Shown piece by piece: positions 180 to 62,093 of a stretch of DNA of 64,000 bases. The DNA is taken from the NCBI RefSeq assembly GCF_000471625.1, contig NZ_AUSW01000013.1, positions 1 through 64,000 of the forward strand, given 5' to 3'. Below the pieces are notes generated by a model that worked only from the letters and a program-made list of their open reading frames with translations, was not told the DNA's origin and did not search any database. Position numbers and translations under genes: made by a program. Position 1 is the first letter of the stretch. Each line of letters begins with the position of its first letter. The stretch is from Psychrobacter aquaticus CMS 56. GTDB taxonomy: Bacteria; Pseudomonadota; Gammaproteobacteria; Pseudomonadales; Moraxellaceae.

Positions 180-447
180 AGTCGTTTGCATAGCATTGTT
201 TTTCTACTCTTCTATTACTTAATTCCTTCTATATATAGGTAAAATCCTGCTTTCTATTATAATCCAGTCAAGTATTATTCATGATTGGCTCTGAAAGTTG
301 GAAGTGGATTGTATTAGAGCAGAAAAAACATGCATGTGGCTTTATTATATATCACAATGATTGAATACAATTGATGTGGTCTCACGGTTATATGATTGAT
401 GGTTGCAATCATCACTGCCAGCGGACCCAAAAACAGGCGAATATATT

Positions 448-52074: not shown

Positions 52075-52090
52075 TGTTTCACATGAAACC
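52075..52090. other. parS-like palindrome 1
   Basis: TGTTTCACATGAAACC: 14 of 16 match TGTTTCACGTGAAACA, differing at the central G and the last base. It lies 15 nt upstream of the metallophosphoesterase start. Confidence 0.6.
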
Positions 52091-52113
52091 TAATCTCATA
52101 CAATTAACAACTA

Positions 52114-52129
52114 TGTTTCACATGAAACA
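52114..52129. other. parS-like palindrome 2
   Basis: TGTTTCACATGAAACA: 15 of 16 match the parS consensus; only the central G is A. It starts 39 bp from the first site, in the same 82-nt gap. Confidence 0.65.
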
Positions 52130-60509: not shown

Positions 60510-62093
60510 TTATTCAGCAGTTTTATGCAATAACGCATAATAAAAACCATCACCACTCTCGCTATTGATCGGCAAACACTGGCGACCGATGGTTTGGGCA
60601 ATACCCCAACTACAATCTTCGGTAAATTCAATTGCGACCGCATCATTATGATAGCTGATAAAGTCCTGCATTTGCGCCACATTTTCTTGCTTTAGGATAG
60701 AGCATGTTACATAGAGCAGATATCCACCCGCTTTGAGCTGTGGCCACAGATTGTGCAATATATCGGCTTGTAACAATGCAGTTTGTTCGACGTCTTCTTC
60801 GGTACGCAAGATACTAATATCAGGATGACGACGAATTACGCCCGTCGCAGTACAAGGAGAATCAAGCAATATTGCATCAAATACCGGCTCATTGGTAGCT
60901 GCTTTTTTATTTTTTCCATGCTGCCATCTGGTTGCATCGGCACAAACAATATTTAGCGCAATATTTTTTTCTGCTTGCTCTAAATCATGCTGCGTTAAAG
61001 TCAAACGCTGTAGGTTGTCATAAATACGTTCGATACGTGTCGCTTCATTGTCGATAGCAGTCAGCTTGATTTTAGAAACAGACGATGTCGCTTCTACATT
61101 TTCTTGTTTCACGTGAAACAATGGTGACTGAACATCTGAGCTGAGCAACTCTAACCAATGCGCAAGCTTGCCACCTGGTGCTGCGCAAGCATCTAGAATA
61201 TGTATCTCACTGTTATCGCCTTCAGTATTATCAGGGTCGGTAACTTTGGTATTAAGCTTAGCCATCAATGCTTTGTGGATAATTGGTGCAGCAAGTTGCG
61301 CATGCATGTCTTGCACGCTAGCAGCGCCTTGGGCAAATTGCGGCAAAGCATTCACAGCGGTGGTTTGATGTAGTCTAAACCCTTTGGTTGATAGCGTTGC
61401 AGAAGCAGCGGCATCTGACGAACCTGCCAGTTGTAAGCCACTCATTAGCTCAACCAAGTCTGCGTCCACTTCTGCACTGTACAATTCTTTTTGATAGTCA
61501 TCTATCGACGTAACAGCCGTATTCACTCGCAAAAACATTGGTGCAGCTTGGCGTAAGCCTTGAGTTAGCTCGTCATACTGCTCGCTCCAGTCTTGCTTAA
61601 GCTGATAAGCGAGCCAATTCGGTAGGCTATGTTTTTTATCACATTTCTTACGAAATTTGCTAGGATTTTTGGCGACTTTACGCAAGATGGCATTGATTAA
61701 ACCAGTTGCATGAGCAAATTCAATCTCTTTTGCCGCTTCAACTGTTTCATGAATCGCGGCATGATCGGCCACTTCTAAATACAGCAATTGCACTAAACCC
61801 ACTTGAATCGTGGTACGAACTTCAACCTCATCGATAGGATTATCCGCTAAAGTATCTAGCAAACGCGCTAACGCATACCATTGGCGCAATGTCGTTAATA
61901 ATAGCGCATGAGCAAAACCTTTATCGCCGTCGTGCAGACTGTTTAGTAACGGATCAAGCACGCTTGCGAGCGACTGACCGTTTTGAATTGCCAGTAAGGT
62001 GCGAATTACCCGTACACGTACGCTGCCATTCATAATAAGGTTGCTAGATGGTTTGAGCTTGTTGTTTCTTGGCGCAGTGTTGGTTTGTCTCAT
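60510..62093 (-). CDS. rsmB: 16S rRNA m5C967 methyltransferase
   Basis: 527 residues. N-terminal NusB-like RNA-binding domain (about 20-165: VRVIRTLLAIQNGQSLASVLDPLL, RQWYALARLLDTL) and a SAM methyltransferase domain: DACAAPGGKLAHWLEL (motif I), DAILLDSPCTATGVIRRHPDIS (Cys in motif IV), YVTCSILKQEN (Cys in motif VI). A long insert at about 320-345 (QSPLFHVKQENVEATSSVSK) is not conserved, and its LFHVKQ codons spell a perfect parS site. Fmt gene upstream, thrC downstream. Confidence 0.93.
   Translation of the reverse strand: MRQTNTAPRNNKLKPSSNLIMNGSVRVRVIRTLLAIQNGQSLASVLDPLLNSLHDGDKGFAHALLLTTLRQWYALARLLDTLADNPIDEVEVRTTIQVGLVQLLYLEVADHAAIHETVEAAKEIEFAHATGLINAILRKVAKNPSKFRKKCDKKHSLPNWLAYQLKQDWSEQYDELTQGLRQAAPMFLRVNTAVTSIDDYQKELYSAEVDADLVELMSGLQLAGSSDAAASATLSTKGFRLHQTTAVNALPQFAQGAASVQDMHAQLAAPIIHKALMAKLNTKVTDPDNTEGDNSEIHILDACAAPGGKLAHWLELLSSDVQSPLFHVKQENVEATSSVSKIKLTAIDNEATRIERIYDNLQRLTLTQHDLEQAEKNIALNIVCADATRWQHGKNKKAATNEPVFDAILLDSPCTATGVIRRHPDISILRTEEDVEQTALLQADILHNLWPQLKAGGYLLYVTCSILKQENVAQMQDFISYHNDAVAIEFTEDCSWGIAQTIGRQCLPINSESGDGFYYALLHKTAE
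61105..61120. other. parS centromere site (perfect 16-mer) inside rsmB
   Basis: TGTTTCACGTGAAACA is an exact palindromic match to the widely conserved chromosomal parS consensus bound by ParB/Spo0J. It lies in a variable insert of RsmB. parS sites cluster around oriC, so the right end of the window is probably origin-proximal. Confidence 0.88.

Follow-up and report, generated by a model that had tools for sequence, protein, structure and literature searches.

The closest described counterpart of the locus reported here is the ParABS system of Pseudomonas aeruginosa, which, like that of Psychrobacter, has multiple parS sites near the replication origin (oriC). Nine of the ten P. aeruginosa parS sites are predicted to lie within coding sequences (PMC4368675), and parS3 as well as parS4 are called intergenic in PMC5521831. 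A related palindrome, the Noc binding site (NBS), is bound by a ParB paralogue. Here we describe a parS site within the rRNA methyltransferase gene rsmB of Psychrobacter aquaticus CMS 56. It lies in a stretch of 64,000 nucleotides (the window), which forms the first 64 kb of contig C13 in a genome of 3.2 Mb and 38 contigs. We consider this 16-mer, with a probability of about 0.93, to be a parS that functions in the chromosomal ParABS system of Psychrobacter and is kept by selection on DNA.

A pattern scan of the window found TGTTTCACGTGAAACA with no mismatches to the parS consensus. The 16-mer encodes LFHVKQ of RsmB, its core being read in the frame TTT CAC GTG AAA (FHVK), which confirms what the original prediction, made from the sequence of this stretch alone, had claimed about the match and its host gene (Table 1). 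The host open reading frame (ORF) is identified as RsmB by its best NCBIfam match, NF008149, at 368.3 bits, slightly below the cut-off of 375. The closest named RsmB that was found is that of P. vallis (97%), and all 57 named loci found by RsmB belong to Psychrobacter. A chance origin of the 16-mer is rejected, as the copies found far exceed the expectation. The 3.2 Mb genome contains three perfect copies and ten with at most one mismatch, whereas chance at the base composition of contig C13 would give about 0.001 and 0.05, respectively. The reversed pattern, used as a control, gave a single genomic match with up to two mismatches versus 14 for the true pattern. When up to three mismatches were allowed, the window alone gave three matches; 100 shuffled versions averaged 0.35, and a single one of them likewise had three.

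Table 1. Coordinates of the parS and parS-like sites, the host gene and the surrounding protein loop in the window
Feature	Position	Strand	Remarks
parS site TGTTTCACGTGAAACA	61105..61120	.	perfect palindrome
rsmB, 16S rRNA (cytosine-967-C5)-methyltransferase, 527 aa	60510..62093	minus	contains parS at residues 325-330
RsmB residues 321-339, low-confidence loop	61077..61133	minus	pLDDT (predicted local distance difference test) <50; variable except FHVK
Second parS-like site TGTTTCACATGAAACA	52114..52129	.	intergenic
Third parS-like site TGTTTCACATGAAACC	52075..52090	.	intergenic; 39 bp start to start from the second site

With dnaA (C13:75216-76619) taken as a proxy for oriC, the rsmB site belongs to an array that clusters around the replication origin, as is characteristic of chromosomal parS. 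A genome-wide search allowing up to two mismatches detected 14 sites. Thirteen of them are located on C13 at 52075-133668, that is, from -23 to +58 kb relative to dnaA and within 82 kb, and one perfect copy is on contig C25. The latter lies within an AlkB-like gene, whose orthologue is found 93-118 kb from dnaA in all six relatives examined, whose chromosomes are complete or nearly so, and carries a parS site in five of them. By position, and for the 14th site by synteny, all 14 sites are therefore origin-proximal, including the three perfect copies (two on C13 and one on C25), which are not scattered far from the origin. The distance from the rsmB site to the start of dnaA is 14.1 kb, so the origin-proximal placement proposed originally was borne out; it had been argued from the gene context in pseudomonads, and this part of the argument needs correction, since the host is Psychrobacter and not Pseudomonas. 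Eight of the 14 sites are intragenic, in rsmB, ribE, mnmE, recF (two sites), yigZ, an abcF gene and the AlkB-like gene. The two parS-like sites at 52075-52129 occupy the gap between two minus-strand genes, one with a weak match to a YaeI-like phosphodiesterase and the other encoding a TIGR01777 oxidoreductase.

Within the Psychrobacter genus, the site is found in every rsmB gene recovered. The counts to trust come from an even sample of 60 genomes searched with the whole protein: rsmB was matched in 59 of them, and in each of these the same loop contains the site, with no more than two mismatches. Together with seven Psychrobacter genomes from the family sample, 66 out of 66 rsmB genes keep the site, 46 of them exactly. 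The 57 named loci, which overlap in part with the sampled genomes, all carry it as well (47 exact, ten with one or two mismatches), in a scan biased towards site-bearing genes because one of its six query peptides, FHVKQENV, overlaps the site. The rsmB frame is broken in L056 (JCM 18901) and L071 (WY6), as well as in L154 (G058), which is probably the same record as L071. Sequencing errors are a possible cause, and the 16-mer is intact in these loci.

The codons of the core were compared in an alignment of 56 Psychrobacter sequences, from which L056 and L071, both with an exact 16-mer, were left out for their broken frames. Phenylalanine 326 is encoded by TTT in 56 sequences, histidine 327 by CAC in 50 and CAT in five, valine 328 by GTG in 55, and lysine 329 by AAA in 56. 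The F, V and K residues are invariant and H is changed once, whereas most neighbouring residues between 317 and 342 are variable. The four-codon window 326-329 has, jointly with 327-330, the lowest synonymous diversity of 442 windows, and the five-codon window 326-330 has the lowest of 424. Across 53 sequences less than 95% identical, synonymous differences occur at a rate of 0.053 in the FHVK core versus 0.385 elsewhere in rsmB, and only 34 of 128,520 quartets of F, H, V and K columns are as low as the core. Where the protein core does change, the DNA remains parS-like: FHMK is encoded with CACATG, a form that also occurs in the intergenic 52114 site of P. aquaticus, and FHVE with GTGGAA, while in genome G108 both arms have changed together to TGTTCCACGTGGAACA. 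By these descriptive codon figures, the rsmB site is held at the level of DNA rather than protein, as expected for a chromosomal parS. The original prediction had named loss of the 16-mer as DNA in close relatives among the findings that would speak against it; both the genus counts and the codon analysis show that it is kept.

Outside Psychrobacter, the same-loop site was found in the two genera of highest RsmB identity, here called g7 (five of six matched genomes) and g10 (seven of ten). The loops in these genera, as well as in G014 and g5, were located with looser motifs and tblastn. The site has three mismatches in one of the site-bearing genomes, G103, and the loop peptides of the two genera include KTFHVKH, MFHMKH, VFHVEH and MFHVEQ. 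The g7 and g10 genomes that lack the site indicate that it can be lost. Among the other Moraxellaceae genera, none of the 35 genomes examined (of 50 with a match) has the site in the loop, and none has FHVK either. Beyond the family, no site was found in the loop of the 28 best-scoring of 73 matched genomes of the order (L238-L265), so a generally conserved rsmB position is rejected. The most simple scenario is that an ancestor shared by Psychrobacter, g7 and g10 gained the site, which later disappeared a few times; what we say on gain, loss and age is based on distribution. Three of the 28 order-level genes (L239, L250 and L260) have parS elsewhere in rsmB, in the VSRET frame at residue 194/199 or as CFTWN at residue 153, and these sites are apparently independent gains. 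The same genomes have no site in recF (L221, L215 and L282), which accounts for three of the four site-less loci among the 70 described below.

The position of the site within the protein was considered using an AlphaFold2 model based on 21 aligned sequences. The mean pLDDT is 86.5, and the low-confidence residues lie between a helix (308-318) and a strand (342-348), where E. coli RsmB (1sqf) has few residues. The FHVK peptide thus sits in a tolerant loop that is predicted to be disordered. It had been suggested that this segment is an insert kept because it houses the site. The loop is indeed non-conserved, and residues other than FHVK drift. However, G126 and G122, from the two nearest genera, have the site in a loop no longer than that of site-less genomes, so it does not need an insert, and longer loops without a site occur in G083, G094 and G113. 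Strict coupling of insert and site is therefore rejected, and retention of the insert for the sake of the site is not supported.

A search with TIGR00180 detected a single ParB-family protein in the whole genome, on contig C34, and this protein passes the cut-off of the general ParB model of NCBIfam. Aligned to chain 6t1f, which we take to be Caulobacter ParB, it has R, L, Q and G at positions 173, 179, 184 and 201. The register of the alignment was checked against ten residues named in PMC7383237. According to the same source, these four positions are RTAG in Caulobacter ParB and QKKR in Noc, and positions 173 and 201 switch specificity. In that numbering, R173 and G201 of this ParB are residues of the parS type, and the Noc-type Q173 and R201 are absent from the sole ParB-family match of the genome. 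Four of the six contact residues common to ParB and Noc are also retained (170, 171, 178 and 204). In L014 (C34), the ORF immediately preceding parB is ParA-like (GGVGKTT) and itself follows an rsmG-like ORF; both were named by eye rather than by a model.

By analogy with ParABS systems elsewhere, ParB would bind the rsmB site, load there as a clamp and serve chromosome segregation. ParB dimers would recognize the palindrome and load as cytidine triphosphate (CTP) clamps. The clamps would slide along the neighbouring origin DNA, joined by others from the remaining parS sites around dnaA; ParA would then move the complex, and the complex would load SMC. Since the RsmB loop appears to tolerate many peptides, the gene can carry the site as TTT CAC GTG AAA, in the FHVK frame. 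Several observations weigh against a functional parS at this position. The site is absent in one of six g7 and three of ten g10 genomes. Within Psychrobacter, G129/L079 and L044 carry TGTTTAACGTCAAACA, a damaged core in an intact rsmB reading frame, in which both palindrome arms are altered, H is replaced by N and GTG by GTC, and which represents a natural loss. The G129 variant, also written TTTAACGTCAAA, is the only one with damaged arms among the 66 Psychrobacter genes; L044 and G129 share identical 16 bases and are perhaps the same strain. The codon figures come from sequences that share ancestry and do not provide exact probabilities. On the side of the protein, two ParB contact residues differ from those named in PMC7383237 (Q162 to H and S172 to A), and it is the Noc model that gives this ParB its top NCBIfam score, although 183 bits is far short of the cut-off of 315.

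Four other explanations were compared with a selected parS. A requirement of RsmB for the FHVK peptide, with the DNA match as a by-product, would fit the near invariance of these residues in the 56 sequences; we find it hardly credible, because the synonymous codons are nearly frozen while the flanking residues drift, and protein-level constraint is rejected as the cause. Also against it are the other Moraxellaceae genera, in which all 35 genomes examined lack both site and FHVK, the few residues of E. coli RsmB at this predicted disordered place, and the g7 and g10 genomes, which also use FHMK and FHVE. Passive retention of an ancestral parS as a relic without present function gains some plausibility from the redundancy of the array, as P. 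aeruginosa needs only one site (PMC4368675), and from the existence of g7 and g10 genomes without the site, but it does not account for the low synonymous change across the 53 divergent sequences, and we regard it as very unlikely.

The remaining two alternatives concern the use of the site. P. aeruginosa ParB represses genes beside the intergenic parS3 and parS4 (PMC5521831), and the rsmB site could likewise be a real ParB site whose main role is local transcriptional control of rsmB and its neighbours rather than segregation. This is unlikely, given that the site lies in the middle of the gene and that the array brackets dnaA. Use of the site by a Noc-like or another palindrome-binding protein might be suggested by the relatedness of ParB and Noc and by the leading, though sub-threshold, score of the Noc model. 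Such a user is extremely improbable: the search, confined to the ParB family, yielded one match genome-wide, this protein has R173 and G201 instead of the Q and R of Noc, and the site fits the parS consensus, from which the NBS departs at two half-site positions (PMC7383237). A Noc-type site is rejected on these grounds of consensus and specificity residues.

The rsmB site is one of several intragenic parS sites with conserved positions. In ten relatives (six Psychrobacter, two g10 and two g7 genomes), a site at the corresponding place of rsmB was found in all ten. The ribE site (DVSRET, residue 61) is also present in ten out of ten with at most two mismatches, its core being changed in one, G126. 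The mnmE site occurs in all six Psychrobacter and both g10 genomes and is absent from both g7 genomes, and abcF has a site in both relatives for which it was fetched. In recF, the site near residue 134 was found in all ten relatives with up to three mismatches and the site near the C-terminus in all nine with the whole gene fetched. A side finding in one g10 genome, G068 (L203:13497-13641), is a group of three parS-like sites within about 150 bp of mnmE, accompanied by insert-like residues.

The recF pair was further surveyed across the order (L208-L237, L267-L306; L008:14434-15642). Among 76 genomes searched, 74 matched and 70 loci were examined; a site was accepted if it differed by no more than one base from any of six core forms and lay in the same frame. 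The C-terminal site is present in 66 of the 70 loci, the internal site in 61 and neither in four. E. coli recF has no site, with FHNE and MFTVE at the two places and at best three mismatches to a core. Enterobacteriaceae are described as lacking par genes (PMC3909081); the ParB model nonetheless matches in E. coli in a control search. The recF pair spans the order, whereas the site in the rsmB loop was found only in Psychrobacter, g7 and g10; the pair would thus seem old and the site in rsmB a more recent addition. Taken together, the origin-proximal centromere of Pseudomonadales is probably an inherited, positionally fixed coding array, which comprises the recF pair and, in Psychrobacter and near genera, clade-specific additions in the rsmB loop, ribE, mnmE and abcF. 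Centromere DNA would thereby dictate short host peptides (FHVK, FHVE and VSRET), and the only conserved part of the RsmB loop segment would be the letters of the centromere.

The rsmB site shows how selection on a chromosomal centromere can operate within a gene for a protein: its codons are frozen, although the surrounding loop is free to vary in protein sequence. The natural presences, absences and paired arm changes form a set for testing what ParB needs of parS in vivo. They also raise the question of why the recF positions stay fixed across the order, although any origin-proximal copy should do.

Judged by its sequence, the rsmB site is an intragenic parS under DNA-level selection, and as such of a known kind. 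Its novelty is limited, because parS sites in recF and other coding sequences of P. aeruginosa are already in print (PMC5521831, PMC3909081, PMC4368675). No earlier report of parS in rsmB was found among the listed titles and abstracts of openly licensed papers on Psychrobacter, Moraxella or Acinetobacter or on intragenic or conserved parS. Similar to Psychrobacter, P. aeruginosa has two parS sites in recF (PMC5521831, PMC3909081); in contrast, rsmB is absent from the accessible text of PMC5521831 and is not named in the available passages of PMC4368675 and PMC3909081 on P. aeruginosa parS. The Psychrobacter sites also differ in being of the TTT/AAA type. The usual arrangement has parAB beside the gid genes near the origin, and in P. 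aeruginosa parAB lies about 7 kb from oriC (PMC3909081), whereas in Psychrobacter, g7 and g10 it is separated from dnaA by 30-47% of the chromosome (measured in 13 of 18 genomes, with the main contig taken as a circle), while the parS sites stay around dnaA. In Caulobacter crescentus, as here, palindromic parS sites cluster at the origin within essential or high-fitness-cost genes (PMC5815017); the Caulobacter cluster is tight, about 8 kb from ori, whereas the Psychrobacter sites extend over more than 80 kb on C13 and further still with the C25 site.
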